Shown here: positions 3,464-63,898 of the stretch, in pieces
Layout of the letters: each line of letters opens with the position of its first letter
How positions within the stretch are numbered: the first letter of the stretch is position 1
Virus record (IMG/VR): IMGVR_UViG_3300006316_000001
Span: 42,816 to 106,815 of that record
Direction: 5' to 3' (one strand)
DNA length: 64,000 bases
DNA from: a virus
Notes under the pieces: generated by a model
Seen by the model: only the letters and a program-made list of their open reading frames with translations
The model's database searches: none
What the model was told of the DNA's origin: nothing
Made by a program: the position numbers and the translations under genes

Positions 3464-3510
3464 ACACGAGAGAGACACTCGATATGACCCAGAATGCCAG
3501 TTTAAGTGAA

Positions 3511-3541
3511 TTTCAATAGAAGGCTAATAGGAAGGAAAGTG
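3511..3541 (+). repeat. 31-bp direct repeat, copy A
   Basis: Begins TTTCAATAGAAGGCTAATAG and matches 4780-4810 at 30 of 31 bases. It lies 85 bases upstream of the capsid-paralogue start. With copy B upstream of the endonuclease VII gene, it is best read as a duplicated leader or promoter element, perhaps for the phage sigma factor (inference). No canonical -10 is inside. Confidence 0.75.
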
Positions 3542-3625
3542 TGCTTTTTAAAACACGCGACCTTTCATTTTATTGATGGGATAATTCGATTACCCCATAT
3601 CAAAACTAATGAGTGGGGAAATGAC

Positions 3626-16597: not shown

Positions 16598-17092
16598 ATG
16601 GCTTTAAAAGACATTTCTCTCGCAAACTTTACCACAGTATCATTCTTCGATCATGACGTTGGTAGTGGTGAGTTTGTTGAGATAGCAGAAGTGCAATCAT
16701 TGACGCATCCCACGGATGAGCGAACAATTATTGAAGTTCCCGAGTTTGGAACTGATTATCCAACCAAGCGTGTTGGTTCGAGTTCAACGGGTAATGCTGA
16801 GGTTGTTGTTAACTTCAACCCTGCTGAACCGTCACATATTCGCATGCTCGAAATTTATGAGAAGCGTGCTCTTATGTTGTTCCGAATCACAATCAACAGT
16901 GATAACGCTGGAACTGACAGTTCATTTTTCGAATTCAATGGACAAGTGGCATCGAAAACATCTTCAGGTGAATTTGACGCGATGACTACATTGACATTCT
17001 CAATCACAGTTGATGGAAAATTGGGTGAGTGGGATACTCCACTTTCAACCCCTGCTCCAGATCCTGAACTTCCTGACGAAAATGCTCCATAA
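16598..17092 (+). CDS. Major tail (tube) protein, copy 1
   Basis: A 164-residue beta-rich protein with the blocks SLTHPTDERTIIEVPEFG, SSSTGNAEVVVNFNP, FFEFNGQVASKTSSGEFDAM and TTLTFSITVDGKLGEW. It shares all of these with the next gene, so the two are tandem duplicates. It carries a proline-rich C-terminal tail that copy 2 lacks. Ribosome site AAGGAGAT is strong. One copy probably forms the tube; the other may be decorative or alternative. Confidence 0.82.
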   Translation: MALKDISLANFTTVSFFDHDVGSGEFVEIAEVQSLTHPTDERTIIEVPEFGTDYPTKRVGSSSTGNAEVVVNFNPAEPSHIRMLEIYEKRALMLFRITINSDNAGTDSSFFEFNGQVASKTSSGEFDAMTTLTFSITVDGKLGEWDTPLSTPAPDPELPDENAP

Positions 17093-17103
17093 GGGGGAAA
17101 ATG

Positions 17104-17556
17104 ATGGCAGGTTTAACTGACATTTCTATTGGTAACTTTACCAAGGTGTATTACAACACCGGAACAACAGCATCTCCTACATGGGTTGAGATTGAGCGCA
17201 TTCAAAGCCTAACGCATCCAACAGATGAAAAGAATATCGTGGAAGTTCCTCGATACGGTAGTATCTACCCTACCAAATTGGCTGGTTCTGCCTCAACTGG
17301 TAATGCTGAGATTGTTGTTAACTTTAATCCTGATAATTCAACACATCAATACTTGCTTGCTTCATACAAAAATGGTAGTTCTGAAGAATTCAAGATTGAA
17401 GTGAATGAAGACATTGACGGTACAAACGGTTCATATTTCCGTTTCGCAGGTCAGGTTGCTTCTAAATCATCATCAGGTGAATTTGATTCCATTACCACAA
17501 TGACATTCTCATTATCTGTGAATGGCGCTATTGGTGATTGGACACCTAACGCTTAA
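17104..17556 (+). CDS. Major tail (tube) protein, copy 2
   Basis: A 150-residue paralogue of the preceding protein: SLTHPTDEKNIVEVPRYG, SASTGNAEIVVNFNP, YFRFAGQVASKSSSGEFDSI, TTMTFSLSVNGAIGDW. Two adjacent ATGs (17101, 17104) follow AGGGGG; the second is better spaced. The two paralogues differ mainly in the middle loop and the C-terminal tail. Confidence 0.82.
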   Translation: MAGLTDISIGNFTKVYYNTGTTASPTWVEIERIQSLTHPTDEKNIVEVPRYGSIYPTKLAGSASTGNAEIVVNFNPDNSTHQYLLASYKNGSSEEFKIEVNEDIDGTNGSYFRFAGQVASKSSSGEFDSITTMTFSLSVNGAIGDWTPNA

Positions 17557-47885: not shown

Positions 47886-48545
47886 TTAAGAAGTTATGGA
47901 ATCTAGATACTCAGCTAACCGAAGGTGTGTGTTCTGCATCATAAGAACGTCCAGCGCAATATCATGATCTTCACGGTGTTTTATTACACAATCTGGCCAT
48001 ACGAATGAATCATCATACCCGTTTGGTGTGTGATCAGGATTCCATATTGTTGTTATCGCGTCAATTTCAGTACGGATATCGCGAATGTTCCACCAAGGGA
48101 ATGGTATTTCCCACCTGAAGTATTTGTAGATATTTTCTAACAGAACGATATCAAACTGTGGACCACGCGCCCAGATACGGTCACCATTGGCATTGGGTTG
48201 GTATCCCATATCATCCAGATATTTCTGAATTCTTGGACCCATTAATGAAAGGTCAATATCTTCTGGGCTCGGGTCAATAACCATCGAACGGGCGTGAGCC
48301 TGATCAGGATTACTCCACCAATCAACTGTGCTCTGGTCCCAAGTTCGGTTGTATTTATTGAACTGCGTCTTCAAGTCAAACTTTAGACGGAGAGCATCAC
48401 CAACCAATTCTTCGAATGACTTCATCTCAGATGGATCAAATACCAAGATTGCTAGTGATGGTGTTGCCGTATCGGGATTGCGTTGAGCATTACCCACAGT
48501 CTCGAAATCGAGAATGATTTGTTTAGGAGAGTTTGAATTTGTCAT
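47886..48545 (-). CDS. DexA-like 3'-5' exonuclease
   Basis: A 219-residue RNase H-fold exonuclease. Exo I is ILDFETVG (D13, E15). Exo II lies in the WARGPQFDIVLLENIYK region, with its conserved Asp. Exo III is KHREDHDIALDVLMM, with HD...D. The whole resembles T4 DexA and related DUF5051-type nucleases, which degrade host or unwanted DNA ends. The start overlaps the preceding gene by 23 bases. Confidence 0.85.
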   Translation of the reverse strand: MTNSNSPKQIILDFETVGNAQRNPDTATPSLAILVFDPSEMKSFEELVGDALRLKFDLKTQFNKYNRTWDQSTVDWWSNPDQAHARSMVIDPSPEDIDLSLMGPRIQKYLDDMGYQPNANGDRIWARGPQFDIVLLENIYKYFRWEIPFPWWNIRDIRTEIDAITTIWNPDHTPNGYDDSFVWPDCVIKHREDHDIALDVLMMQNTHLRLAEYLDSITS

Positions 48546-49248
48546 AATATTCTCTGAGGTTGTCGTTTAGTTTAGAACACATTAGATATAAATCATCAAG
48601 CGTTCGGTTGTCTTCAAAGTCAAATCCTTCAATTGTACGTCCAGCATGAATCTTAGGTTCAACTCCAAATTTACGAATTGTCAAGATCAGTGAATTCAAG
48701 CAGTCACCAGCAGCAACGCGACATATGATTCGGAATGACGATTCGCCGAATTTGCGACGGAACGTACCGTTTGCTCTCGCAATCACGAACTTGTCATCAA
48801 CGTTAATGGAGAATATATCATGTGATTCTGAGTGATTCATTTTCAGATGATTTTTGAGATAGTCGCGCTTGACGGTGGCGCATCCTGGATTTCGGAATGT
48901 CTTGACATGAAAGTTCAAAGTCTTACCCACAGCCACTGAGTGCTTACGCTTACCTAATTTGGCGTACACGCTCTCTCCAGGATTGGCGTATTGCATGCTC
49001 CAAGGACACTCAATACCATTACTGGCTGCTGCTGATTTAATGACTGTGAAGATTCTGTGGTTACGGTGTTCGCTGTGTGACGCTTTACCTTCTATCGCCA
49101 TCATGATACGACGGGCAACTGCATAAGCCGCATCCAACGATTTTAATTTGTCTGGGAATGTTTCTTGGAATTTGGAAATCCAAATCTTACCCTTTTGCTT
49201 TAACATCCACTCAATGTAATGGACGTAGTCTATTTCTGTGTGACGCAT
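48523..49248 (-). CDS. Hypothetical protein
   Basis: A 241-residue basic protein beginning MRHTEIDYVHYIEWMLKQKG, with a ribosome site AGGAG. It has many His, Lys and Arg residues and a helical N terminus, which suggests nucleic-acid binding. I recognise no family. It is between the alpha-helical paralogue genes and the exonuclease. Confidence 0.72.
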   Translation of the reverse strand: MRHTEIDYVHYIEWMLKQKGKIWISKFQETFPDKLKSLDAAYAVARRIMMAIEGKASHSEHRNHRIFTVIKSAAASNGIECPWSMQYANPGESVYAKLGKRKHSVAVGKTLNFHVKTFRNPGCATVKRDYLKNHLKMNHSESHDIFSINVDDKFVIARANGTFRRKFGESSFRIICRVAAGDCLNSLILTIRKFGVEPKIHAGRTIEGFDFEDNRTLDDLYLMCSKLNDNLREYYDKFKLS

Positions 49249-49259
49249 ATCATTTCTCC

Positions 49260-49757
49260 TTAGAATTCATTGAACATTTCGCATAGAAGCTCGTTAACTT
49301 TCTCTTTACTCATCTCAGCAGCCCAACCTGCAGCCTGAACAGCATCATCAACAGACCGACCACAACAACACCAACCAGCGGAAGAGGCGGAACGAGCAGC
49401 CCTCCGCGCACCATCATCCCAACCAGCAGCCCAGCTAGAAGAATCAGCATTAAGAGCGACATCACGAGCGCATTCGGCTTTTGGGTCATTAAGAAAATTG
49501 ACAATTGAGTCATACTTATCTGTGAGTGGCATTATTTTCTCAATGTTAATTAGGGCGCAATCGCATGCAAATCTTGCGATTCTATTTGTTGGTATGGTTT
49601 TACTAGCTAACCACAATAGATCGTCGTATGTATTTGCCCCTCCAACCAATGTTTCTACTTCCACACTCTCTTCAGTGTTGTTGGTTTGTTCTATGAAACG
49701 ATTAAGACCTAATTCGCAAGCATCCATTTCAATCAACTCAGATTTAGAAATTTTCAT
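49260..49757 (-). CDS. Helical-repeat protein, paralogue of 49794-50339
   Basis: A 165-residue protein whose first ~70 residues (MKISKSELIEMDACELGLNR and onwards) are nearly identical to those of the upstream gene, while the second half diverges into an Ala/Trp-rich segment (AAGWDDGARRAARSASSAGW, then three successive Cys). Both end with EMFNEF. The Ala/Trp helical repeats look like those of the Imm-5-like immunity family, but this is a loose resemblance. Confidence 0.7.
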   Translation of the reverse strand: MKISKSELIEMDACELGLNRFIEQTNNTEESVEVETLVGGANTYDDLLWLASKTIPTNRIARFACDCALINIEKIMPLTDKYDSIVNFLNDPKAECARDVALNADSSSWAAGWDDGARRAARSASSAGWCCCGRSVDDAVQAAGWAAEMSKEKVNELLCEMFNEF

Positions 49758-49793
49758 AATAGAATTCCATGTGTTAGGTGAAGTGTTAAGTAT

Positions 49794-50339
49794 TTAGAAT
49801 TCATTGAACATTTCGCGTAGTAGGTCGTCTATGCAACTTGACCCACAAACATGTTGAGCTGACCGAGCAACATTAATGGCATGAATCTTCGCGCTTCCAG
49901 AATATTTTGCGGAATATGCAGCAAAGGCGAACGAAACTGCAGTATTGGCGCAGGATGCACGAGAGTAGCGAGCCTTTTCGATAAAACTAAAAGACTTTTC
50001 CCACAATTCATCCCGAATGTCTTTATTTATATCATCAAAATCGTCAGCAATATCATCACTTGAAGCGTTATTCAAAAAATCAACAATCAAATCGTAGTTG
50101 TCTGTGTGGGGCTTGATATGATGTGCGACAATCAATGCGCAATCGTATGCAAATCTTACGATTCGGCGTTTCGGAATCTTCTTACTCGCTAACCACAATA
50201 GATCTTCGTGCGTGTTCAGTCCACCAACCAATGAGGTCACTTCCACACTGTCTTCGGTGTTGTTGGTTTGTTCTATGAAGCGTTTAAGACCTAATTCACA
50301 AGCATCCATTTCAATTAGCTCAGATTTAGAAATTTTCAT
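49794..50339 (-). CDS. Helical-repeat protein, paralogue of 49260-49757
   Basis: A 181-residue protein with the same N terminus as the next gene (DACELGLKRFIEQTNNTEDS, then LLWLASKKIPKRRIVRFAYD). The second half has Ala/Ser/Tyr-rich helices (AFAAYSAKYSGSAK) and ends LREMFNEF. It is the first gene after promoter copy 5. Tandem duplication followed by divergence of the C-terminal half is evident. The function is unknown. Confidence 0.7.
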   Translation of the reverse strand: MKISKSELIEMDACELGLKRFIEQTNNTEDSVEVTSLVGGLNTHEDLLWLASKKIPKRRIVRFAYDCALIVAHHIKPHTDNYDLIVDFLNNASSDDIADDFDDINKDIRDELWEKSFSFIEKARYSRASCANTAVSFAFAAYSAKYSGSAKIHAINVARSAQHVCGSSCIDDLLREMFNEF

Positions 50340-50389
50340 AATAAATAGCCTTTTATTGGGAAGGGCTAACCGTTAACCCTATAACAACC

Positions 50390-50418
50390 ATTATACTCTA
50401 ATTAGCCGAGAAGTAAAG
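50390..50418 (-). promoter_or_regulatory. Early promoter copy 5 (leftward)
   Basis: -10 TATAAT at 50395-50390, -35 CTTTAC at 50418-50413, spacer 17 bp. The leader hairpin at 50379-50363 is GGGUUAA-CGG-UUAGCCC with one G-U pair. The leader through the start codon (AAAAGGCTATTTATTATG) is the same as in copy 8. It drives 49794-50339 through 47886-48545. Confidence 0.88.
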
Positions 50419-50440
50419 CTTTTTAGCTAAATTTGAATGT

Positions 50441-50466
50441 AAAAAAGGCTCCGCTAGGGAGCCTTT
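50441..50466 (-). terminator. Terminator of the 50469-53205 operon
   Basis: GGCTCC-GCTAG-GGAGCC (50447-50463). On the minus strand six Us follow. It starts within a few bases of the stop of the DNA-transferase-like gene. Confidence 0.9.
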
Positions 50467-50468
50467 TG

Positions 50469-51551
50469 TTAACCTAATAGGTCGAATATGTTGGGTTCTG
50501 GTTCGGTCTGCTGTTCAAAAATGTGACCGCGCCAATCAATCTCACCCCGCTCTAAAAAGAACGACATCGCTTCTTTGTTGATCGGGTCTTTCCGCCCACG
50601 TTCGCCACCTTCTTTGCGAGTTTCTGACGATTGTAGTAATGAGCCATGGAGCATTTCTTTCCTTGCTTCCCAAAGTAGTGACCACTCAATTCCGTCCCAT
50701 CCCTTGGACTGAACGTCGGTGATGTCCAAAAATTGTCGGTCAAGGTAATATCCTGGATACCTACCATCTCTATTACGGAAAAATTTCTTGAAAGCGCAAC
50801 AGACAGTTTCGAACCCAAGACGCTCGACTGACAATCCAAAACGACAATTCGTCTCTTTAATGATTCCATTTGCCTCTTCCTCTAGCCATTCAAGCTCTTC
50901 TTTTGTGAATTTGTGGCGGATCTTTTTACCATCCACCTTACGTTTACACCATTCATCTTTACCTAGTCCGCGACACAATCCGTCACGGTGCGACTCAGAA
51001 CCACCATCACCCAACAACAAACTTGGGATGTCAATCGGGATTCCACATACATCTCGTAGAGCCTGCATATAAAACCAGCATTTGTAGCGACCAAAGTCGT
51101 GGAACTTGATGACCTCATCCCATATGCGTTTGAAGTTCGCCTCACGATCCTCACCACACATACTCATGAACCAAGCATTCTGAGTGCCGTCACCAATGGT
51201 TTCGCGATAGGATTCAAACATCGCTGGCAACTTACCCTTACTGTAACGACAATCCACCTGATAGCGCAACTTGTGGTAATTATCGTCGTTCCACTTAGTT
51301 AAGCGGTCAAGGTCAACCAAGTCATAGTCGGGAAACTCGTTCGCCATCACATACGCTTGTGGGAGTTGATAGCTATTGGCGTACAACCAGACGTACCATA
51401 GACGTTGTTCTTTGTTGTACTCTTGGCGATTGAACATGTAGTTCATCATCCAAATAGCAGGGTCAACATCGCCTCGTAAATACTGCCAAGCTGTGTATTG
51501 GATTAAAAGCTCGCGCCTGTTTTTGTAGTCTGGAGTGCGATAATCAATCAA
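50469..51551 (-). CDS. Amino acid:DNA transferase-like protein (ADDT / aGPT-Pplase clade 2)
   Basis: A 360-residue protein. The pattern NRQEYNKEQRLWYVWLYANS (about residues 42-61), VMANEFPDYDLVDLDRLTKW and LRYQVDCRYSKGKLPAMFES then YRETIGDGTQ (about 95-128) resembles the alpha-glutamyl/putrescinyl-thymine pyrophosphorylase clade 2 family, experimentally linked to adding amino acids to activated 5-hydroxymethyl-dU in phage DNA. The start is TTG 51551, overlapping the previous stop (TTGA). It is the last gene of the promoter-6 operon, with a GAT-II gene upstream, which fits a DNA-modification role. The family call is from motif memory. Confidence 0.7.
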   Translation of the reverse strand: MIDYRTPDYKNRRELLIQYTAWQYLRGDVDPAIWMMNYMFNRQEYNKEQRLWYVWLYANSYQLPQAYVMANEFPDYDLVDLDRLTKWNDDNYHKLRYQVDCRYSKGKLPAMFESYRETIGDGTQNAWFMSMCGEDREANFKRIWDEVIKFHDFGRYKCWFYMQALRDVCGIPIDIPSLLLGDGGSESHRDGLCRGLGKDEWCKRKVDGKKIRHKFTKEELEWLEEEANGIIKETNCRFGLSVERLGFETVCCAFKKFFRNRDGRYPGYYLDRQFLDITDVQSKGWDGIEWSLLWEARKEMLHGSLLQSSETRKEGGERGRKDPINKEAMSFFLERGEIDWRGHIFEQQTEPEPNIFDLLG

Positions 51552-51982
51552 AATATGTACCCCTTGTTCATCTTAGCCAACTCAGTGATGGCAGCATGAT
51601 ACCCTTCACGTTCTTTATTCCATAATGCGCGAGTGAAACGTTGAGCGACCCACGGCTCAAGTTCTTTATGGTGACGGTTTAATAAAATCTTGTCTAACCA
51701 ATTCATATCACACAACATATCATAGTTCAGGTGAATCAAGAACGATGGGTTCTCTTTGATGAACTGCTTACATGAAGGTGGTAGCTTGACGTCAGCAACC
51801 TTGATTTGGTCATCAATATCACCAACAATCTTCTCAATGATGGCTTGTGTTAGAAAAAGACCGCTACTGTGGATGTAGTGGTCGTTACCAATCTTCTCAA
51901 CGATAGCATCAAGGAAGTTGCCCATGCGTGATTTGAGCTGTTGGATTTGCGGGCTATCTTTGTGAGCAATATGTTTATTCAT
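51548..51982 (-). CDS. Hypothetical protein in modification operon
   Basis: A 144-residue helical protein, MNKHIAHKDSPQIQQLKSRM, with a perfect AAGGAG ribosome site, starting 2 bases after the GAT-II stop. No motif is recognised. Tight linkage with the amidotransferase and DNA-transferase genes suggests a helper or substrate-handling role. Confidence 0.75.
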   Translation of the reverse strand: MNKHIAHKDSPQIQQLKSRMGNFLDAIVEKIGNDHYIHSSGLFLTQAIIEKIVGDIDDQIKVADVKLPPSCKQFIKENPSFLIHLNYDMLCDMNWLDKILLNRHHKELEPWVAQRFTRALWNKEREGYHAAITELAKMNKGYIF

Positions 51983-51983
51983 C

Positions 51984-52757
51984 TTAGTCTCCTTTGAAGT
52001 CTTTGATGGTTGTTGGTTTGATTTGGATGTCAATCTGAAGGTCTTGTCCCAAGCCATCCGGATATCTCTTTTTGGCGAAGACTCCTGGATCAGCACGACT
52101 ATATGTACCCATACCCAAAGTTCGACTTTCATAAATGACGCCATTAATGCAATCATCAATCTGGGACTTTTCTATACCTGCGCGAACTAAAGCATCTTGA
52201 GTTGATGAGAAAATTATACCCGTCCCCAAATCAGCGTGCCACAATGGGCGTTGACCGTTGCGGAATCCCTTGATTGTACAATTGGTGGTGTCTAGTTCAA
52301 GAACCGCCATGCTAGCATCTGGGAAATACTTCAGAGGATGGATACCCTGATCAAGTGCTGCTAGAACAAGACTCGAATCATTACCATTTTTGGCAATTAG
52401 CCCGTACTCACTTTCCCAAGTACTCGGATCAGCTTGTGTAATCACACCGTTATGGGCGATAGCTCGTTTCTCACCGAATAATGGTTGGTTGTGCTCAAGG
52501 TCACTGGTTGAGTATCTAGCGTGAGCGATAAGGACAATCTCGTTGTAATCTTCGTCAACAGCATCACTCAAGTTAAACTCACTCAGTAGAGCATCAACTG
52601 GTACTGGCTTGCTGTAACCTTGAATCTTATCATCTTTAATGTACGCCACGCCTGAAGCATGACGACCGCGTATTTGTAAATTTCTAAATACACGTTCACA
52701 CAACTCAAGGTCTTCGCTGGTTGGGTGAACAAAATGCATACCGAATACACCACACAT
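51984..52757 (-). CDS. Class II glutamine amidotransferase (Ntn hydrolase)
   Basis: A 257-residue GAT-II domain. The nucleophile Cys2 follows the initiator Met (MCGVFG), and the usual motifs follow: LQIRGRHASGVAYI, LIAHARYSTSDLEHNQPLF and IAHNGVIT (substrate and oxyanion-hole residues), plus GNDSSLVL. No synthetase or ATPase domain is fused, so it should supply ammonia to a partner enzyme, here plausibly one of the amidoligase-like or DNA-modifying proteins of the same cluster. AGGAG ribosome site. Confidence 0.88.
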   Translation of the reverse strand: MCGVFGMHFVHPTSEDLELCERVFRNLQIRGRHASGVAYIKDDKIQGYSKPVPVDALLSEFNLSDAVDEDYNEIVLIAHARYSTSDLEHNQPLFGEKRAIAHNGVITQADPSTWESEYGLIAKNGNDSSLVLAALDQGIHPLKYFPDASMAVLELDTTNCTIKGFRNGQRPLWHADLGTGIIFSSTQDALVRAGIEKSQIDDCINGVIYESRTLGMGTYSRADPGVFAKKRYPDGLGQDLQIDIQIKPTTIKDFKGD

Positions 52758-52767
52758 AATAATGCTC

Positions 52768-53205
52768 CTATTTGATGTCTAAATCATTAATGAACCACGT
52801 ACAATCAGGATTATACTCACCCACACCACTTGTGGACAAGAACTCTTCCTTTGTCTTTCCATAATACGGATACCCAGAACACATTCCAGGACGGTTTTCG
52901 TAGTTTGTGCACACCCCATTAACTAGATGCTTACATAGGAAGTGGCTCGCTTTCTGTGCCCATTTGCGTAGACCTTTGTCTTTGTATTTGAACATCTGTG
53001 GATTGATCTTCTTGGCACGACGCTTCTTTATTGGAATCAACATGTCAGCGACTTTCTGACGTTCATCACTGTAGTCAGACAAATCCCAATCAGCTCTATT
53101 ATCAGGGAATTTGCGAACAAAATTTTTGTAGCCTTGAGTGGCGACAATACGAAGGACTTTACAACAGTCATAGCAGCGCTCGCCATTAATCATACAATGT
53201 TCCAT
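52768..53205 (-). CDS. YkgJ-type Cys-cluster protein
   Basis: A 145-residue protein with CYDCC near the N terminus and FLCKHLVNGVCTNYENRPGM then C-x-G-Y-P near residues 90-115, plus a late Cys. This is the spacing of the CxxCxxCC zinc/iron-chelating (YkgJ) family. These proteins occur beside modification enzymes but their reaction is unsettled. It is the first gene after promoter copy 6. The start is ATG 53205 or possibly 53193. Confidence 0.78.
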   Translation of the reverse strand: MEHCMINGERCYDCCKVLRIVATQGYKNFVRKFPDNRADWDLSDYSDERQKVADMLIPIKKRRAKKINPQMFKYKDKGLRKWAQKASHFLCKHLVNGVCTNYENRPGMCSGYPYYGKTKEEFLSTSGVGEYNPDCTWFINDLDIK

Positions 53206-53265
53206 TATTTACGTACTCTCTTTTTGTTATTTAGAAATATGTAACCATTTACCCCTACAACAATC

Positions 53266-53294
53266 ATTATACTCTAATTTTACGAGAAGTAAAG
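53266..53294 (-). promoter_or_regulatory. Early promoter copy 6 (leftward)
   Basis: -10 TATAAT at 53271-53266, -35 CTTTAC at 53294-53289, spacer 17 bp. The leader begins GGGGTAAATGGTTAC and has only a weak stem, so this copy has largely lost the leader hairpin. It drives 52768-53205 through 50469-51551. Confidence 0.85.
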
Positions 53295-53316
53295 CTTTTT
53301 AGTTAAATTTGAATGT

Positions 53317-53338
53317 AAAAAAGGCTCCCGAAGGAGCC
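53317..53338 (-). terminator. Terminator after GNAT gene
   Basis: GGCTCC-CGAA-GGAGCC (53323-53338) is followed on the minus strand by six Us. It separates the acetyltransferase gene from promoter copy 6. Confidence 0.9.
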
Positions 53339-53343
53339 TATTT

Positions 53344-53946
53344 TTATGAGAAGATATCTTTCTTTAGGTGAGTCGCCAGCGAACTGTAATTGTGGTCGTC
53401 GCCAGTTGACGATTCTGGATGAACGCGCCTTTGTATTAGATCTATGACTGACTGATTATCATGTCCCAATAAGACACTCATGTCGGGACTATAGCTCAAA
53501 TAGTCATCTAAGGTTTTGAGTAGAGGCATGTTACAGTAATAGTCTCCACTTCTCGTGATTCCCCAGTATGTGAATCCCAATCTATTGTAGAATTTTATTG
53601 CGGAAGGAGCACAATTCATTCTGATTCTAGAAAGTTCGCATTCATTACCTTCTTGTATTGCAACTTCCATAATTTTTCTGGCGTACCCAAATTTCCGATA
53701 TTTCTTTGGCGTCAAAAGATTTATTATGGACAAATACCCGTCTTTGGTTTTGTTTAAGAAAAGAACGGTTACGATTTTACCATCAACTTCCAGACACAAA
53801 ACAGGCTTGGCTTTCCAATCATAGAATCTGTTATGGAATTCGATTGAATTTTCTGAGAATCTCAAGGTTTCCTTATCATCTAAATCTATCGTATTATGGA
53901 AGTATTCTCTGTATGAGAATTCACTATCAATATTTATAATGTTCAT
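53344..53946 (-). CDS. GNAT-family acetyltransferase
   Basis: A 200-residue protein from ATG 53946 (AAGGAAAGTGG upstream). The acetyl-CoA-binding core is KYRKFGYARKIMEVAIQEGN (the R/Q-x-x-G-x-G/A loop: RKFGYA), preceded by the strand DGYLSIINLLTPK and followed by AIKFYNRLGFTYWG. Such enzymes transfer acyl groups to amines. In phage hypermodification clusters GNAT proteins help tailor the base side chain; here the link is by position only. It sits between two terminators, after the transporter gene. Confidence 0.85.
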   Translation of the reverse strand: MNIINIDSEFSYREYFHNTIDLDDKETLRFSENSIEFHNRFYDWKAKPVLCLEVDGKIVTVLFLNKTKDGYLSIINLLTPKKYRKFGYARKIMEVAIQEGNECELSRIRMNCAPSAIKFYNRLGFTYWGITRSGDYYCNMPLLKTLDDYLSYSPDMSVLLGHDNQSVIDLIQRRVHPESSTGDDHNYSSLATHLKKDIFS

Positions 53947-53961
53947 ATCCACTTTCCTTAT

Positions 53962-53983
53962 AAAAATGGCTCCCGAAGGAGCC
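53962..53983 (-). terminator. Terminator after transporter gene
   Basis: GGCTCC-CGAA-GGAGCC (53968-53983) is followed by AUUUUU on the minus strand. The hairpin is identical to the one at 53323-53338. Expression of the GNAT gene downstream would need read-through or its own promoter; none is visible. Confidence 0.85.
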
Positions 53984-53993
53984 TTAATAGGAA

Positions 53994-55322
53994 TTACTTT
54001 ACCATCTTGAACGCTTGAACTACCATGTTTAGGTATAGCGCTGCTATTGGTAACCCTAGGATTGCAATCACAATCTTCAGAGCATTCCAAGCTTCAGGTC
54101 CAAACATTTGGAAGCTAATAGCCATGAACGCTACAAATACAACCCAGCAACCTGAACTTGTTTTACCTTCGCTCATCTCATCCAAAGCAATCGAACCAGA
54201 GTCAACACAAGTAACCATCCACAAACACATTGCCACTAACAGTACACCACCAGCAATCTCACCATACGGGATAACCTGCTCAAGCAAGACGAACGGATCA
54301 TTAACTTCAAGAATCTCAGCAGCCGAACCTAGTACACCGAAGAAGAAACAAGTGATAACCATCGGAATAACACCAACACCAACAATCACTTCACGAACAG
54401 TACGCCCTTGGGAAATTGTGGTAAAGAACGCCACGCTGAACGGTAGGAAAGTGAACCACCAAGCCGCATAGAAGTATGGCCACCAGAATAACCAGCCATT
54501 GTGATCTTCGCTAGCACCAGCACCAGTATCGAAGCCATACTCAAATAGATTACTCAACATCATCCCGAAGCTTTGGAATGTGTACTTTAGTGTATCCATA
54601 CCAACAAACCAAGCCACCGCTGCTGTGATGATTACACCTGTAACCATTGCGCCATTACTCAACCATTTCACCCCACGCAGAACACCTGACTTTGCTGACG
54701 CTAGGCTGATAATCGCAAACACCACCATCAGTATACTCTGATCAACATCAATGCCGAATGTTCCCTTAAGACCCGATTGAACGCCAGAAGCTGCTATTGT
54801 GAATGACGACACGATTGCGATTACCGTAGTTACACACATGAGAACCATAGAGGCTGATGTTGCCTTTTTGCCCATGTTAGGAGTGAATACAGCTTTACCC
54901 TTTGACCAGAATATACCGCCAGCCGCAGTCGCCACAGCAAACATGATATAAGCTGGACCCCAGTTATACATGGTGCGAGCAATAGCATCAGTGGTTTCGA
55001 AACCAGCCTCAACGTGATAGCTTGGTTCAGATACGCCCCAAACGAACAGTGATGAACCAATTACCGTTGATACGCACATACCGTACCAGCTGAGGTTACC
55101 AATTCGCTTCTCTCCTGGAAGCTTGATATTGGCAAATTTGGAGTTGAACGCTAGTACCGCTGCGATAAATACCGAAGCCATAATTGTTGCGTTCATCATC
55201 CAACCGAAGTCACCGAGGACTCCCTTTCGGATTGAACCAAGGATGTTACTGACATCTTCAGTAAAGAACGATGACGCCAGACCGAGTGTTAGTAGAATTA
55301 AGATTGTGTATAGGCTCTTCAT
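53994..55322 (-). CDS. BCCT-family (betaine/carnitine/choline-type) transporter
   Basis: A 442-residue integral membrane protein with about twelve hydrophobic segments. The diagnostic BCCT region is present at about residues 275-315: GWLFWWPYFYAAWWFTFLPF then ISQGRTVREVI, the Trp-rich helix 8 and following loop of this family. An earlier FVWGVSEPSYHV matches the WGVxEP signature. It is shorter than bacterial members, with minimal tails. I chose ATG 55322 (AAGGAAATTAAC upstream). BCCT carriers import quaternary amines or related solutes. It lies inside the DNA-modification cluster behind two amidoligase genes, so it may import a precursor, or protect the host osmotically. Start alternatives: 55340. 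Confidence 0.88.
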   Translation of the reverse strand: MKSLYTILILLTLGLASSFFTEDVSNILGSIRKGVLGDFGWMMNATIMASVFIAAVLAFNSKFANIKLPGEKRIGNLSWYGMCVSTVIGSSLFVWGVSEPSYHVEAGFETTDAIARTMYNWGPAYIMFAVATAAGGIFWSKGKAVFTPNMGKKATSASMVLMCVTTVIAIVSSFTIAASGVQSGLKGTFGIDVDQSILMVVFAIISLASAKSGVLRGVKWLSNGAMVTGVIITAAVAWFVGMDTLKYTFQSFGMMLSNLFEYGFDTGAGASEDHNGWLFWWPYFYAAWWFTFLPFSVAFFTTISQGRTVREVIVGVGVIPMVITCFFFGVLGSAAEILEVNDPFVLLEQVIPYGEIAGGVLLVAMCLWMVTCVDSGSIALDEMSEGKTSSGCWVVFVAFMAISFQMFGPEAWNALKIVIAILGLPIAALYLNMVVQAFKMVK

Positions 55323-55382
55323 GTTAATTTCCTTATTCATTGCGCCAGTTGTAGTGGCCAAGACCACGTAAAAATGTATGGA

Positions 55383-56381
55383 TTATCGTAACCATCCGTA
55401 TGTTTCCTTAATTTCTTTGAGTAGTTCTTTAGTGATTTCAGAACCGTTCGCATAGTTGTATTTGCGGAAGTTGTCCTCCATCACCTGATCATTATGAGGC
55501 ATTGGGGGAAAGTCCCAGTCATCACGCATTGCAATAACGTCGTGAATTGTTTTGTGTGGCTCATTTAGCGCAGTCTCAATACACATTGCTGTGAATAGAG
55601 CCACATTTGCCATTTGTTTACCTTGGCGAGTGCCCCAATTACTACGGTTCTCGATAGTTGGGTGTTTACCGCCCTTACCGCGAAGTCGTGTAGTGTTCAA
55701 TCCTGGACGTTGCATCATCCAAGAAGGTTTATTGTCCTTTGTCTGATTCGCTTGCCCGTCAATTACCCCGCGTGCCGTGTCTGCAGCTAATGCACGCTCC
55801 AAATTAGCATCACGGAGAACTGAGCAACAAGCGCCCATCATGTATTTGAACAATTTAGGGTCACAAGTTTCCTTGTCTATATTGAACGCTGGAGGATTCG
55901 TCTTAGTGATATCTTCCCAGTTATTGGTAGCCCACCAGAACAGTCGCTTCATGCCATCGCGGTCTTCAGTTAGACCTTCAACACCAACGTGAACGTGGCC
56001 ACCCGAACGTCCCGAAACTGAAATCTCATGACCGATATGAGCTTCTTGCATAGCAATCATTTGGTCCCACGCATCGCCAAGTTCTTCGGGTGAGTTGTAC
56101 ACTGCTGTGTTAACTTCACCACCGCGATTAGAGATAGGAAGATCACCTTCGTATTGATCTTTGAGAGGCCAAGAAGCTTTACCGTCGCGATTACCACATT
56201 CACTCTCAGAGTAAGACCATGACCAACCTTCAGGAAGTGGACCACTTTTATCGACATCATTAACTTCAGCATCGATACCGAAAGTGAATGTCTTAATGTC
56301 GTATTTCGCTTTAACCTGCATCCATGGCTCGTTTTGAACTAGTTCCAATGGAGTTGGTTCTACATCACCGAATATGTTCAT
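55383..56381 (-). CDS. Amidoligase-like protein (ATP-dependent COOH-NH2 ligase family)
   Basis: A 332-residue protein. Near the N terminus TFGIDAEVNDVDKSG, then NRGGEVNTAVY (about residues 80-90), SGGHVHVGVEGLTEDRDGMK (about 125-144) and a late ENRSNWGTRQGKQM segment follow the glutamine-synthetase/GCS2-like amidoligase pattern (two acidic metal sites and an HxH strand). It shares these blocks with the interrupted gene at 56393-57382. The family forms amide bonds in peptides and secondary modifications. In this cluster the acceptor may be a modified base or free metabolite (inference). Confidence 0.68.
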   Translation of the reverse strand: MNIFGDVEPTPLELVQNEPWMQVKAKYDIKTFTFGIDAEVNDVDKSGPLPEGWSWSYSESECGNRDGKASWPLKDQYEGDLPISNRGGEVNTAVYNSPEELGDAWDQMIAMQEAHIGHEISVSGRSGGHVHVGVEGLTEDRDGMKRLFWWATNNWEDITKTNPPAFNIDKETCDPKLFKYMMGACCSVLRDANLERALAADTARGVIDGQANQTKDNKPSWMMQRPGLNTTRLRGKGGKHPTIENRSNWGTRQGKQMANVALFTAMCIETALNEPHKTIHDVIAMRDDWDFPPMPHNDQVMEDNFRKYNYANGSEITKELLKEIKETYGWLR

Positions 56382-56392
56382 GCTCTATACCC

Positions 56393-57382
56393 CTAAATGT
56401 TGTTTGGTTCTTGACGTACACGGTATGTGTTTTTGTCGTCAGCCTTCAGCTCGCCAATACGGTTCTTTCTATCAATCAAGGATTCTACATACCCGACCAT
56501 GATGTCGCGTTCATATTTGATCTTAGGAAATTTCCATTCAGGATGTCTGTCTAGAATAGACTGAACTGATTCACCAGTATTAAGCGCAGCATTAACGAAC
56601 TCTTCACAGAACTCAAAACAGCAACGTAGTTCATCGCGATCAAGAGAACCACGGAATGCGCGGAACTCTAACGTACCCATTCGCCCAAGCGGATAAAGAT
56701 TGACAGCCGCTCTTGACATTGGCATTCCCTTTCGTGAACCGCTACTTTCGTGACGACTTTCGCCCATCTTATGTGCGTCAATCAACTCAAATAGGTTGGT
56801 TACTGACGGAAGACGCTCACGATACCAATCAGGGATTTTAGTGGTTGACACATAATCTAAGTATTTATGACAGCCCCATGTGGATCCTGGAAGCTTAATA
56901 TCTTCGTAGACAGCAAATACAGGTTCGCCGAACAGATCAGTCTCACCAGTATCATATTTGTAGTCTTCATCAGTTAGACGGAAACATGCATTAATGTATG
57001 CTTGGCGATTATCTTCATTAGCAGAGTAGATTGCTAATCTTCGCAGAGCATCACCATCTTCAGTGAGTCCTGGAATATGCATATGAATGTGGGTTACTTG
57101 GTAGTGGGACATTGTCGGGTGTGGGAAGAAATCTATGATTTCCATGATGCGATCAAGTTGGTCTGGCCAACCTACCGTTGGAACCGTGTTAATTTCGCCA
57201 CCCATATGGCAATCTTCACCAGATGGGTCAGCAGCGATTCCGCGAAACTCACCCAACATATTGATGATATCATGCTCACACCATTCCCACTATCCGAGAT
57301 GCTCAGGAATTTCGGTTCGCTTATCAACGTCACCTAGTTCCAACTCAGTACCGTATTGGAATGTTTCTTTAGGGTAATTCAT
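56393..57382 (-). pseudogene. Amidoligase-like gene interrupted by an in-frame TAG
   Basis: From ATG 57382 (AAGGAAATAAT upstream) the frame reads MNYPKETFQYGTELELGDVD... and stops at TAG 57292-57290, codon 31, then continues open as WEWCEHDIIN to TAG at 56395. Without the first TAG the protein would be 329 residues. It shares GGEINT, THIHMHIPGLTEDGD and other blocks with the neighbouring 55383-56381 gene. A restart at ATG 57259 would lose the first metal-site motif. TAG is the normal stop of this and other genes here, so recoding is unlikely; a recent nonsense mutation or sequence error is the simplest reading. Confidence 0.75.
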
Positions 57383-57443
57383 ATTATTTCCTTCTGAAAT
57401 AAAGGGGAAGCGTCAACCTTTAACACTTTACCCCATAACAACC

Positions 57444-57472
57444 ATTATACTCTTATTTTACGAGAAGTAAAG
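57444..57472 (-). promoter_or_regulatory. Early promoter copy 7 (leftward)
   Basis: -10 TATAAT at 57449-57444, -35 CTTTAC at 57472-57467, spacer 17 bp. The leader hairpin at 57434-57404 pairs GGGG/CCCC and AAGUGUUAA with UUGACGCUU, all nine positions pairing with two G-U. It drives the amidoligase-like genes and the transporter. Confidence 0.88.
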
Positions 57473-57476
57473 CTTT

Positions 57477-59324
57477 TTATAGATAATTATTGATGAACCA
57501 TTGTACGGTGGTTGGAATATCCATCGAATGATCCACCCAAACCGCCCTAACGCCACCATAACCGTTAGTGCCTTCGATGCAACGCTCTGCCTTCACTCGC
57601 GTTTCTTCCCATTTGGACTCAACGTTCTTGGTGTTCGGTGTTTTACCTTGAGCTGCGTTGCGTTTCACTAGACGTTCCATGCACACTTCTAGAGGTGTAT
57701 CCATGAATAGCATATGAGGCGTCATACCCATTTCTTTAAAACGATCAATGTGCCATCGACTAGAACTCAGTACCACACCTTCCATCATGATATGATAATC
57801 GTCGAATTCCGGTCGCCCCATGATGATATCCAACGCTTGTTCCATTGTAGCTCTAACCAATGTATCGCATCCAGCAATGTTGGTTCCAGGAGTGTAGTCC
57901 CCAATAAGGATGATTCCAAGATTGGGTAGTACCGTGGCGAATCCAGATTTCTTGGTTGTGGCTTGGAAACCTTTAGACATATTCCCAGACAACCAAGCGA
58001 ACTCTGTTGAGAGAAGGTACGCATCAGTGTCACGTTCAACGAGTCCCTTGGGGATGGTAGATTTTCCTGAACCATTCGTGCCAAGTAGCTGATACATGGT
58101 ACGGCTCTCACGGTGCCCATACTTAGAACCTGTGTACTCTGGTTTTGGGTCGAAGAGAGTGTCTTCATAAAGGTCGGTTCTTCGTACTTCTGAATCAACA
58201 CGTTTGCGCTCTTTATGGAGTTCAAGTTGCTCATCATCTGTGATTCGCTTACCCATGTAGGGGATAGTGCGGTTTGGATCATTCGGGGCTTCATTTTTTA
58301 CCTTCTTGGGTCTTTTCATATCTTCACCTGTTCCATCAAAACTAACACGCGCACGCGGCTTCTTACCTTCTTTTACTTGTTCATTACAACGAACGTACTT
58401 ACTGAATTCACAGAAGCAGTTCTCTAATGACATCACATTCATTGTGCGATCTTTTGGGTCAAGGTCGGTCATTAAGTTCTCAGTGAACGATGTTCCGAAT
58501 ACTTCATCTTGATTATCACGCAACCAGAATAATAGCTCTTCATCAGTCAAACCATCAGGGTCTGTGAATAGCATACTTAGACCGAGTGAACATCCTGGAC
58601 CAGCGATAGTGAATTCGTTCTCGCTGAACTTATAGTCTGGGCAGTACGTGAAGTCAACAAACATCTGATAGCTCAAAAATTCGCCAATTCCAGGAACATC
58701 CATCAGGATATTACAAACCTCGCGCGGTGATTCTGCTGAGTGGATATCGTCGAATAGACCCTTACCGATCATCCAATCAATTAGAGCCATTGGTCGAGCC
58801 GGAATGTACACCTCACCCGTTAGGCGACCGGATGCAGCCTTCATACCACCAGTATTGAATGCTGATGTGAAGAACACGTAATCTGAGTCACTGGTTTGTT
58901 TAGCCTGTAGAATCTTTTTGCGATCCATCATCCACCCACCATACTCATTCTGAACCCCAGAAAATGAAGCAGGTAGGTTAATCAACTCACACGTTTCCCA
59001 TTTATTGTACAATCGGAATAGGACTAGGTTGATGATGCGCGTGGTCAAACTCAAATCTGTGCGATTACAGATATGTTCGATAGCCCACTTGGTGGCACGA
59101 TCATGCTCGCGTCTAACGTTAGTGAACTTCACATTCTGTAGAATTGTATTGGATGTCCAAGGCGCGGGAAGCTTCATAACATCTTTCTTCAAATGGATGT
59201 TGTAACGCTCGGTTATCCATTCCACCAATAGACCCAGCTTAACTGGGTCCATGGGTGGTTTTGCGTAATGGATCTTACCTTGACTGACGCCACAATATGG
59301 GACATCATGAGGTCTATTTAACAT
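57477..59324 (-). CDS. 5-hydroxymethyl-dU DNA kinase (helical domain + P-loop kinase)
   Basis: A 615-residue two-domain enzyme. Residues 1-310 form the HMUDK helical/HhH domain: KFTNVRREHDRATKWA (66-81), VLFRLYNKWET (101-111), PGIGEFLSYQMFVDF (211-225) and FTIAGPGCSLGLSML (238-252), typical of the aGPT-Pplase clade 1 or hmdU kinase family. Residues 405-615 form a P-loop kinase with GTNGSGKST (415-423). Family members phosphorylate 5-hmdU in phage DNA, the first step toward thymidine hypermodification. The start has AAGGAAATCC upstream and overlaps the previous gene by 11 bases. It implies that the phage makes hmdU-DNA; the hydroxymethylase is not in the window. Confidence 0.87.
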   Translation of the reverse strand: MLNRPHDVPYCGVSQGKIHYAKPPMDPVKLGLLVEWITERYNIHLKKDVMKLPAPWTSNTILQNVKFTNVRREHDRATKWAIEHICNRTDLSLTTRIINLVLFRLYNKWETCELINLPASFSGVQNEYGGWMMDRKKILQAKQTSDSDYVFFTSAFNTGGMKAASGRLTGEVYIPARPMALIDWMIGKGLFDDIHSAESPREVCNILMDVPGIGEFLSYQMFVDFTYCPDYKFSENEFTIAGPGCSLGLSMLFTDPDGLTDEELLFWLRDNQDEVFGTSFTENLMTDLDPKDRTMNVMSLENCFCEFSKYVRCNEQVKEGKKPRARVSFDGTGEDMKRPKKVKNEAPNDPNRTIPYMGKRITDDEQLELHKERKRVDSEVRRTDLYEDTLFDPKPEYTGSKYGHRESRTMYQLLGTNGSGKSTIPKGLVERDTDAYLLSTEFAWLSGNMSKGFQATTKKSGFATVLPNLGIILIGDYTPGTNIAGCDTLVRATMEQALDIIMGRPEFDDYHIMMEGVVLSSSRWHIDRFKEMGMTPHMLFMDTPLEVCMERLVKRNAAQGKTPNTKNVESKWEETRVKAERCIEGTNGYGGVRAVWVDHSMDIPTTVQWFINNYL

Positions 59325-59577
59325 AGAGGATTTCCTTATATGTTGTTCCGTTAGGAGTTACGGTTCGGGTGTGAACCAACTTACCTGAAACGAAAATTTG
59401 TTCTTCGAACATGTATTTATTTAGGTGTAGTTGTTTAACCTCAACCACAAGGTTAGGATCAAACATCAAATCTTCGTGACGCTCAAGAGTGCTGTTCTTT
59501 TCCGTCATAATAAGTAATTCTGAATCAGTTTCTTGGTTTGTGCATGTTTTGTAATCGGGGATGTTATTGATGCTCAT
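59314..59577 (-). CDS. Hypothetical protein
   Basis: An 87-residue protein beginning MSINNIPDYKTCTNQETDSE, with a beta-rich C-terminal half (LVHTRTVTPNGTTYKEILYV). It lies one base after the 58-residue gene and overlaps the DNA-kinase gene by 11 bases, so it is part of that operon. No family is recognised. Confidence 0.72.
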   Translation of the reverse strand: MSINNIPDYKTCTNQETDSELLIMTEKNSTLERHEDLMFDPNLVVEVKQLHLNKYMFEEQIFVSGKLVHTRTVTPNGTTYKEILYVK

Positions 59578-61683: not shown

Positions 61684-62364
61684 CTATAATAAGATCAATT
61701 TACCATCGGATTCAGACAACACACCATCAACATGAACATATGTGACGTTGCGTCTCATCATATCGGATGTGTTTTCTGAGGTACGCCCGTATGGTACACC
61801 ATAAACCACACGTGAAACGCCTGAGTTTGCTATGTTTTTGGAACAGTCAGCGCAAGGTTGGTGAGTACAATATAATGTACCGCCTTGGATATCATCACGA
61901 TTCGAATGCAGCAACGCATTCATCTCAGCGTGTATTTCATGCTCAGAAGACCATTTGTGATGCTTATCGTACAATTCCTTCAGTTTGTTTGTGCCCAATA
62001 TCTCGCAACCAAGTCTAATTTCTTGCTTGATTGCCTCAACCTCTTCTTCGAAGTTGGGGAAGCGGTCACAACAATTACTATCACCTGCGGGTGTGCCATT
62101 GTAACCTGACGCTACAATACGACCTTGACTGTTAACGATGATGCACCCAACCTGATGCTTAACGCACTTGCTTTGGAGCGACTCAATGTAAGCCTGTCTC
62201 AGCCGTGTTTCGTCAAATTTCTCTATTTTGGTAATTTTAATTCTGGGTAAAGTACCAATATCTTCCATAGATTTTAAGCTCGCTTCCCATTTAACATCGT
62301 TAATATCTGGATTTGGAAAACATTCATCACACATTTCAGGGCTGGACCGCCCATGCTCGCACGC
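61684..62364 (-). CDS. dCMP deaminase
   Basis: A 226-residue deaminase. Zinc ligands and catalytic Glu lie in HAEMNALLHS (HAE) and CTHQPCADCSK (PCxxC). VGCIIVNSQGRIVASGYNGT is the usual substrate-binding segment. An N-terminal CEHGRSSPEMCDEC cluster is an added zinc site. It converts dCMP to dUMP, the precursor for dTMP or hydroxymethyl-dUMP, consistent with the hmdU kinase in this genome. The start at 62364 has GAGGT upstream; an earlier in-frame ATG (62412) would overlap glutaredoxin. Confidence 0.93.
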   Translation of the reverse strand, partial: ACEHGRSSPEMCDECFPNPDINDVKWEASLKSMEDIGTLPRIKITKIEKFDETRLRQAYIESLQSKCVKHQVGCIIVNSQGRIVASGYNGTPAGDSNCCDRFPNFEEEVEAIKQEIRLGCEILGTNKLKELYDKHHKWSSEHEIHAEMNALLHSNRDDIQGGTLYCTHQPCADCSKNIANSGVSRVVYGVPYGRTSENTSDMMRRNVTYVHVDGVLSESDGKLILL

Positions 62365-62368
62365 CATA

Positions 62369-62611
62369 CTACTTACCTCGTAAAAATCGGTTAAGTTCTG
62401 CCGCACCACCAATCATCTCATCATCGATGAATATCATTGGGAATGTTTTGTGGTTGTGCGTTTCCGCCAACTTTCTGAACTCTTCTTCCGTATAGTCCTT
62501 GCCTAGAGACTTGTAGGTGAAGTTCATTTGGTGTCGTTTTAGCATTGATTGTGCGCTAACGCAGAACTGACAGAATTCTTTACCTAAAACTGTGATGTTT
62601 GGATTTGCCAT
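62369..62611 (-). CDS. Glutaredoxin
   Basis: An 80-residue thioredoxin-fold protein with active site CQFC (residues 14-17), cis-proline segment TFPMIFIDDEMIGG and a C-terminal helix. Phage glutaredoxins reduce ribonucleotide reductase. It is a member of the helicase-deaminase operon, with AGGAG upstream. Confidence 0.93.
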   Translation of the reverse strand: MANPNITVLGKEFCQFCVSAQSMLKRHQMNFTYKSLGKDYTEEEFRKLAETHNHKTFPMIFIDDEMIGGAAELNRFLRGK

Positions 62612-62620
62612 GATATTCTC

Positions 62621-63898
62621 CTATATTGCAAATTCGGTACGGAAACGTGAACGTGTTGTTGCCGTGTACAATAATTGTTTAATCTCCATCGTCGCACCAA
62701 AGCGGATGAAGTCGGGGGTATATACAAATGTATAATCGAATGTTGAGCCTTGTGACTTATGAGCCGTCATAGCGTAAATGTGCTTGAACTCCGAAAATGC
62801 TTTCTTCAGCGCCCAGAATTTCTTCCAATGCATTCGTGAGTTGGCTGAGTCTGATCGAGCCTTACCTGCGATAATTTGTAGTCGCTCATTATACTTGGCC
62901 ATGTACCCCTTCTTAACGATCTTACATGTATGAATCTCGTTATCGGTTAGGGAGTCCATTTTGATTAGCCAACAATCAACTTCGTACGAATTGCACCAAT
63001 AGTCTTCGACTTGGAGGATACGCATTTCCTCAGCATTCTTCCAGCCCATCTCACCTTCACCACCACCCATTTCTTGTGCAACGATAATTTCACCAACGCG
63101 CCATTCTTCAACATCAACCCCGAAAATCTTTTGTCTGATGTAATTGTTGATGACGTCAACCTGATGGTTTGTGTATGCAATACAACGACAGTAGTCGGGG
63201 TCTTTTCTGAACATGTCAGTTTTATACATATTGACAAGTCGCTCTAACCATTCATGGCGGTCGGTGGCCATTACACCATTACCATGCTCATCAAGATCTG
63301 TGGTGATCTGTGGAAAGTTGCTGTACTCATCTTCCTGACAAAGACGAAACGCTGTAGCCAATTTGATGATAGGGTTATCTTCGGCTTGACGCACAACTTC
63401 AGTAAGTTCGCTGATATTTGAAACATCAGTAAATACCTTACTGACTTCTCCAGGAGCAGAACCAACGGGGCTGATCTGAGCTTTATCGCCAACGAAGATA
63501 ATCTTAGCTGACATGGCATCAAGAATGTACATCAGAATTTCATCACCGAGCATTGAAGATTCATCAATGATTAGTACATCGAAAACCTTCTCTTCATTGA
63601 ACGGTTCTTTCACAAGAACTTCATCACCTTCAACTTGCTTCATCATTAGACCAAGAGTTGAGTGAATTGTGCGATTATCAATACCACCTGAGCGATCAGT
63701 GCCTAGATTGAGTTCTTGGATCATTCGGCGAATGACCTTAACTGCTTTGTGGGTAGGTGCTGCGATACACACTGTTTTGTAGCGTGGAATCTTGTCAACG
63801 ATGTAATTCACCACCGTAGTCTTACCTGAACCTGCCGGACCGATGAGCGTATGGAACCTATTCTCTTGATCGAACCCTTTACTATTGATAACCTCAAG
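62621..63898 (-). CDS. SF1 DNA helicase (Dda/RecD-like), N terminus lost
   Basis: About 425 residues are visible. Walker A is GPAGSGKTT (about 63851-63825). Walker B is DVLIIDESSML, motif III IIFVGDKAQISPVG, and the last motifs AMTAHKSQGSTFDYTFVYTP and LLYTATTRSR, the order of T4 Dda/RecD2-like 5'-3' helicases. The frame continues past the helicase similarity at 63898 into foreign-looking sequence with a stop at 63946, so the native N terminus is missing or replaced. It is the first visible gene of its operon. Confidence 0.85.
   Translation of the reverse strand, partial: LEVINSKGFDQENRFHTLIGPAGSGKTTVVNYIVDKIPRYKTVCIAAPTHKAVKVIRRMIQELNLGTDRSGGIDNRTIHSTLGLMMKQVEGDEVLVKEPFNEEKVFDVLIIDESSMLGDEILMYILDAMSAKIIFVGDKAQISPVGSAPGEVSKVFTDVSNISELTEVVRQAEDNPIIKLATAFRLCQEDEYSNFPQITTDLDEHGNGVMATDRHEWLERLVNMYKTDMFRKDPDYCRCIAYTNHQVDVINNYIRQKIFGVDVEEWRVGEIIVAQEMGGGEGEMGWKNAEEMRILQVEDYWCNSYEVDCWLIKMDSLTDNEIHTCKIVKKGYMAKYNERLQIIAGKARSDSANSRMHWKKFWALKKAFSEFKHIYAMTAHKSQGSTFDYTFVYTPDFIRFGATMEIKQLLYTATTRSRFRTEFAI

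Follow-up and report, generated by a model that had tools for sequence, protein, structure and literature searches.

Among the closest described systems are the pathways by which phages ViI, M6 and phi W-14 hypermodify thymidine; these use a 5-hmdU DNA kinase, an amino acid:DNA transferase (ADDT) and a TS homolog (in part PMC6449724, PMC5977210 and PMC12783734). The known substrates of hypermodification are amino acids and putrescine, both available in the host (in part PMC5977210). ATP-dependent amide formation on a DNA base is also known in phages, from CmoY, which belongs to a family different from the amidoligase-like genes described below (PMC12783734). No transporter is described for the ViI, M6 and phi W-14 pathways in the literature covered, which is incomplete. 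Phage DNA hypermodification is understood as drawing on host metabolites, and 5-(2-aminoethoxy)methyl-dU is the known modified base of phage ViI.

Transporters of the betaine/carnitine/choline (BCCT) family are themselves well known. BetP of Corynebacterium glutamicum, a Na+/glycine betaine symporter, is osmoregulated, and betaine uptake is the classical role of the family. In the lic1 phosphorylcholine locus, which holds a kinase, a choline transporter, a cytidylyltransferase and LicD, the transporter supplies the pathway by which a polymer is decorated. BCCT genes have also been annotated in two cultured E. coli phage records. We found no literature linking BCCT transporters with phage auxiliary genes, in a search of incomplete coverage.

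Here we describe a BCCT gene in a window of 64,000 nucleotides, the last 64 kb of the 106,815-bp IMG/VR virus record IMGVR_UViG_3300006316_000001. Like ViI, M6 and phi W-14, this phage encodes a 5-hmdU DNA kinase, an ADDT and a TS homolog. Unlike them, it has GATase, GNAT and amidoligase-like genes together with a transporter, and no PLP decarboxylase or radical SAM protein was noticed. The principle resembles that of lic1, although the window cluster has no neighbouring choline kinase, cytidylyltransferase or LicD. What appears to be new is the recurrent siting of BCCT genes with thymidine-hypermodification genes, the accompanying phage promoter and terminator motifs, and the viral precursor supply that they imply.

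Results

The BCCT gene and its product

The gene and its neighbours are as follows (positions are those of the window unless given as genome positions).

50469..51551, minus strand: ADDT, amino acid:DNA transferase of the aGPT-Pplase type (PF18724, 7.7e-22)
51548..51982, minus strand: uncharacterised protein, 144 aa, no family match, start inferred
51984..52757, minus strand: class II glutamine amidotransferase with N-terminal Cys2 (PF13522, 4e-6; 27.3 bits, cut-off 27)
52768..53205, minus strand: CxxCxxCC (metal-chelating domain) protein (PF03692, 3e-4, just below cut-off; phrog_14785, 2.4e-19)
53323..53338, minus strand: another copy of the hairpin at 53968..53983, following the GNAT gene
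53344..53946, minus strand: GNAT acetyltransferase (PF00583, 2.4e-9; ATG start at 53946 inferred)
53968..53983, minus strand: terminator-like hairpin GGCTCC-TTCG-GGAGCC (GGCTCCTTCGGGAGCC), beginning 11 bp beyond the BCCT stop and followed by a T-rich tail
53994..55322, minus strand: BCCT-family transporter gene (ATG at 55322, stop at 53994, 442 aa)
55383..56381, minus strand: amidoligase-like gene 1, a diverged paralog of gene 2 (BLASTP E 7e-7)
56393..57382, minus strand: amidoligase-like gene 2, with an in-frame TAG at 57290-57292 and an intact open frame at 56393-57259
57444..57471, minus strand: phage promoter (TTTACT-16-TATAAT) upstream of the amidoligase-like/BCCT unit, in the gap between the kinase gene and the amidoligase-like genes
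57477..59324, minus strand: 5-hmdU DNA kinase, a helical domain (PF18723, 2.7e-65) fused to a P-loop kinase (PF18748, 1.5e-17)

The transporter frame lies exactly where the preliminary description had placed it; its strand is minus. An ORF finder gave a longest frame beginning with GTG at 55367, and we prefer the ATG at 55322, which has AAGGAAATTAAC just 5' of it, as the likelier start. Both family signatures that had been quoted are present in the protein: WGVSEP (pattern WGVxEP) occupies residues 95-100, and WWPYFYAAWW...ISQGRTVRE, a Trp-rich TM8 segment followed by ISxGRT, occupies residues 280-311.

The Pfam BCCT profile PF02028 matched with 182 bits (cut-off 27; E 2e-53), and the alignment covered the full length: residues 5-441 of the 442 align with positions 4-482 of the 485 in the profile. 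The closest solved structure by sequence was BetP (PDB; E 2.7e-22). An AlphaFold model (42 aligned sequences; pLDDT 90.3, pTM 0.89) had the all-helical LeuT-like fold of the BetP/CaiT type, with TM scores of 0.89-0.91 to the best BetP chains, about 0.86-0.91 to BetP and the trimethylamine transporter TmaT together (0.88-0.91 for the best chains of these two), and 0.83-0.84 to CaiT. Profile and predicted fold thus confirm the earlier assignment to the BCCT family, and the product is a full-length BCCT transporter whose transport itself is predicted. The gene is typical of the phage in codon usage (rank 37 of 73), and its GC content is 45.4%, the mean over genes being 42.5%. The score stayed below the cut-off of every named NCBIfam subfamily tried, TIGR00842, NF047988, BetT and CaiT (128.8 against 407.55 and 123.7 against 650, others lower), and the protein is therefore a BCCT member without an assigned substrate.

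The window protein is only 23-25% identical to BetP, with which it shares the whole-length fold and much of the substrate site. The aromatic box of BetP, W189/W194/Y197/W374, corresponds to W121/Y125/F128/W289, so that all four positions are aromatic, with two conservative changes; the preliminary description had proposed this comparison. The kept box makes recognition of a cationic head group plausible. The positions of BetP T467, D470 and S471 are retained, as is ISxGRT. With respect to the Na2 side chains, the T467 position is T371 (kept), whereas the S468 position is C372.

The TM3 substrate loop, in contrast, reads V87-I88-G89-S90-S91 in place of the GMGIG-like sequence of relatives, and BetP G149/I152/G153 are replaced by V/S/S. 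Of 60 aligned sequences, 59 have glycine at the BetP Gly149 position; only the window protein departs from this, with Val. The Gly-rich unwound TM3 segment of the classical betaine-type BCCT site is thus absent, and the specificity of the transporter has likely changed relative to its relatives. Since the TM3 loop is altered while the cation box is kept, no single substrate can be assigned. The long terminal regulatory extensions of BetP are also missing; the protein ends at residue 442, directly after the last helix.

The nearest bacterial relatives, which the earlier description had suggested seeking by homology search and tree, form a compact BCCT clade from Halomonas, Oceanimonas, Zobellella, Oceanisphaera, Marinobacterium and Paracoccus. 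Members are about 460 aa long, near the length of the window protein, but have the canonical TM3 loop. In the tree, the window protein groups with the BCCT of E. coli phage IME392 and this clade (93/82; SH-aLRT 98.6 without the long Vibrio phage rows). An exclusive pair of window and IME392 proteins was rejected (p-AU 0.011), which suggests that the two were acquired separately, and the BCCT of IME392 and EP_H11 was probably an acquisition of its own. The window end branch is long (3.15 substitutions per column), so its exact position in the tree is unsure.

Genes of the compact clade adjoin BKACE, thioesterase and GbdR-like regulator genes, and the Paracoccus locus encodes carnitine 3-dehydrogenase (728 bits against a cut-off of 592). 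These carnitine-catabolism neighbours make a carnitine-type substrate likely for the bacterial clade. In the clade loci (L062-L074, L057) a hydrolase often lies directly upstream, perhaps for acylcarnitine use, and a second BCCT is sometimes nearby.

The phage genome and the inserted block

The terminase, portal, capsid, RecA-like protein, helicase, primase and polymerase are 50-74% identical to those of henriette 12B8 and V6Aob, phages that infect marine Vibrio. The segment from 48523 to 59577 has no counterpart in either relative, and neither 5-hmdU kinase nor BCCT was found in them. The block is flanked by conserved phage genes, a DexA-like exonuclease (47886-48545) on one side and dCMP deaminase and helicase (61684-63814) on the other, and copies of a phage promoter and terminator sit within it. 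The BCCT locus is genuine phage DNA.

Several other features of the genome were observed. A second 5-hmdU kinase helical protein (PF18723; genome 1189-2178) adjoins the primase near the left contig end, and the helicase is at the right end. Since primase and helicase are adjacent in henriette, the contig is probably nearly complete and circularly permuted, with the second kinase gene inserted between them. Two HK97-type major-capsid-like proteins (3506-4750 and 12958-14211) match the same henriette capsid gene with 31% and 58% identity. Tandem duplications were seen in a pair of tail proteins (16598-17092 and 17101-17556), both matching one relative gene, and in a pair of uncharacterised proteins (49260-49757 and 49794-50339) that share the sequence MKISKSELIEMDACELGL.

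As judged from family matches, the two core enzymes of thymidine hypermodification are both encoded in the block: the 5-hmdU DNA kinase and the ADDT. Homologs of the ADDT occur in 376 phage records, ViI among them. The genes for the kinase, the ADDT, the glutamine amidotransferase, the GNAT, the CxxCxxCC protein and the 144-aa protein run in the same direction as the BCCT gene, within 9 kb. The TS homolog (genome 7270-8394) has no detectable similarity to the TS of henriette or V6Aob, and a family match does not reveal its activity.

The transporter had been described as lying in a modification cluster behind amidoligase genes. The cluster is borne out by the kinase and the ADDT, but the amidoligase assignment is not: gene 2 scored 13.9 bits against PF12224 (Amidoligase_2), below the cut-off of 22, and E was about 0.005 against the PHROG amidoligase families, while gene 1 had no Pfam match of its own and gave an unusable structure model (pLDDT 32.6, built from two sequences). 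The identity of both genes is weakly supported, and we label them amidoligase-like only. In gene 2, the in-frame TAG at codon 31 cuts off the N-terminal part (MNYPKETFQYGTELELGDVDK...). A search for a suppressor tRNA for this TAG found none, and the genome otherwise uses TAG as a normal stop codon (31 of 129 ORFs).

The promoter at 57444-57471 is one of 21 near-identical copies genome-wide (GCTTTACT...TATAAT; elements GCTTTACTTCTC..AAGAGTATAATGGTTGTTATRGGG). All 21 are on the minus strand and 20 are intergenic, against 0.17 copies expected by chance, and they mark a clear class of phage genes. Copies in the window include 786-759, 3111-3084, 45437-45410, 47880-47853, 50417-50390, 53293-53266, 57471-57444, 59833-59806 and 61214-61187. 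The hairpin GGCTCC-TTCG-GGAGCC occurs in four identical copies in the genome, two of them besides those after the BCCT and GNAT genes. The order is promoter, amidoligase-like gene 2, amidoligase-like gene 1, BCCT and terminator, with gaps of 11 and 60 bp between the genes. The simplest reading of this arrangement is that the three genes would be co-transcribed from the promoter at 57471.

BCCT genes in other phages

The view that no phage BCCT had been established does not hold. Four phage isolates besides the window carry one, two E. coli phages and two Vibrio phages; the genes are annotated as "putative Bcct family transporter" in MH719082 and "high-affinity choline uptake protein" in OP688485, and went unrecognised in the two Vibrio phages.

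The E. coli phages vB_EcoM_IME392 (116 kb) and EP_H11 (111 kb) come from sewage and a pig farm; their BCCT proteins are about 28-30% identical to the window protein. They too have Ser at the G153 position, but keep GMG. In both genomes a 5-hmdU kinase helical protein lies 2.9 kb from the BCCT gene on the same strand, with a TS homolog just past the kinase. No ADDT match was found in either, though the control genomes gave none in the same search. The IME392 neighbourhood also holds methyltransferase, glycosyltransferase-like, PIG-L and P-loop kinase genes. An ATP-grasp ligase suspected by eye in IME392 (L001:13897-14805) found no family or PDB support and was dropped.

Vibrio phages 1.031.O (L060:13824-16822) and 150E35-1 (L061:13827-16828) carry a fused cytidylyltransferase-choline kinase, a 411-aa BCCT and LicD, the first two annotated only generically. 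This cassette looks like a phage counterpart of the bacterial lic1 locus. No 5-hmdU kinase was found in these two phages.

Homologs of the 5-hmdU kinase occur in 406 of 50,697 phage records. When near-identical phages were collapsed, and the window was excluded because it had prompted the question, the chance that at least one of the two independent BCCT phage lineages (counted as lineages, not records) would have the kinase was about 0.016, which gives modest support for co-occurrence. Conversely, tblastn found a BCCT in 2 of the 406 kinase records, and the Pfam model found none in 14 further ones. BCCT is thus rare among phages with the modification pathway and is not required there.

IMG/VR scans with BCCT queries P0001, A1, A6, A9 and A10 gave no matches, which is weak evidence of absence since such scans rely on short exact patterns. 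Query A3 gave 25 loci, mostly on isolate-genome (prophage-type) contigs, and a 5-hmdU kinase was seen at none of these. BCCT matches also came from Listeria, Staphylococcus, Acinetobacter and faecal "phage" records, which were put aside as probable host contigs. Records of this kind with an ordinary bacterial-type BCCT include OR844994, OR844989, OR847053, CAKLQH020000010 and MT835497, among others, and such filings inflate naive counts of phage transporters.

Discussion

The import of an amine precursor by the window BCCT, proposed from the position of the gene, is plausible. A quaternary ammonium compound does not react through its nitrogen and would have to be attached through a carboxylate or hydroxyl, so the term amine precursor needs refining. 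In the refined form, we consider it an even chance that the transporter brings in a compound resembling betaine, carnitine or choline, to be used in hypermodifying the DNA.

The following course of events may be envisaged. After infection, the phage promoter at 57471 would transcribe the two amidoligase-like genes and the transporter, which would enter the host inner membrane and use an ion gradient to import a small compound of the betaine/carnitine/choline type, zwitterionic or cationic. Meanwhile, the TS homolog would make 5-hydroxymethyl-dU. The 5-hmdU DNA kinase would then pyrophosphorylate this base in DNA, and the ADDT would exchange the pyrophosphate for an acceptor. The transferase could attach the imported compound by its hydroxyl; alternatively, an amidoligase-like enzyme could use its carboxylate. 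Trimming of the product may fall to the GNAT protein. Co-transcription, transport, the nature of the cargo and its route into DNA are the predicted parts of this course.

Import for modification is favored because IME392 and EP_H11 also pair a BCCT with the 5-hmdU kinase, because the Vibrio-phage choline cassette offers a precedent, by analogy, for a BCCT that may serve a phage modification pathway, and because the entire block, kinase and transferase included, is missing from henriette 12B8 and V6Aob. The other modification genes of the cluster, the order from promoter to terminator, the carnitine-catabolism neighbours of the nearest bacterial clade and the amide ligation known from CmoY also speak for it. 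The pairing in unrelated E. coli phages suggests that some phages import a modification building block rather than rely on the host. Several points count against it. The substrates of the known pathways are already in the host, so an importer is not obviously needed; few phages with the pathway have a BCCT; the amidoligase match is sub-threshold, the fold model failed and gene 2 has the in-frame TAG; and the TM3 substrate loop is unlike that of nearly all relatives. The more specific idea that imported choline, carnitine or betaine is joined to 5-hydroxymethyl-dU, giving a permanently positive base, is distinctly doubtful.

The main rival is uptake of an osmoprotectant, glycine betaine or similar, that would keep turgor and enzyme activity in an infected marine host, the place of the gene in the cluster being incidental. 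It agrees with the role of BetP, the best-characterised structural match, with the classical function of the family and with the marine Vibrio hosts of the backbone relatives. We regard it as unlikely, as the regulatory extensions of BetP are missing, Vibrio hosts encode several BCCTs already, the second case comes from sewage and pig-farm E. coli phages in which the BCCT again lies beside the 5-hmdU kinase, and the gene shares an inferred transcription unit with enzyme genes.

The rarity of BCCT among modification-pathway phages marks it as accessory, as would be expected of moron-type cargo or an exclusion factor that alters the host surface or membrane, or blocks superinfection, without relation to its neighbours. 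This is improbable for a gene that stands with the two amidoligase-like genes between promoter and terminator, rather than as a single-gene insertion with its own promoter, and that keeps most transport-site residues.

A metabolic supply apart from DNA, in which carnitine or betaine would provide carbon, nitrogen or methyl groups as in the bacterial relatives, would fit the carnitine-catabolism clusters of the closest bacterial clade. Among the phage genes examined, no catabolic gene was recognised, be it for a carnitine dehydrogenase, BKACE, a demethylase or another enzyme, which makes such a role quite improbable.

We also consider it very improbable that the transporter is non-functional or repurposed. 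The valine unique among 60 sequences, the long branch and the in-frame stop in a neighbouring gene could be read as decay, but the frame is intact and full length, its codon usage is phage-typical and its predicted fold is of high confidence, and the aromatic box, ISxGRT and the T467 and D470 positions are retained. Finally, host contamination or misassembly, raised in the preliminary description and suggested by the several "phage" records with BCCT matches that resemble host contigs, was ruled out by backbone synteny with henriette 12B8 and V6Aob, by the phage genes on both sides of the block and by the promoter and terminator copies within it.

If a viral importer does take part in hypermodification, the extracellular medium would decide which base the phage can make. 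A choline-joined base, if it exists, would be a trimethylated analogue of the 5-(2-aminoethoxy)methyl-dU of ViI, and this would be a class of DNA modification with a side chain derived from the environment and taken up by a viral transporter. The Vibrio-phage choline cassette represents a third, differently wired phage use of BCCT. Importer-fed modification would matter for the ways in which phages evade restriction and for the search for new bases.
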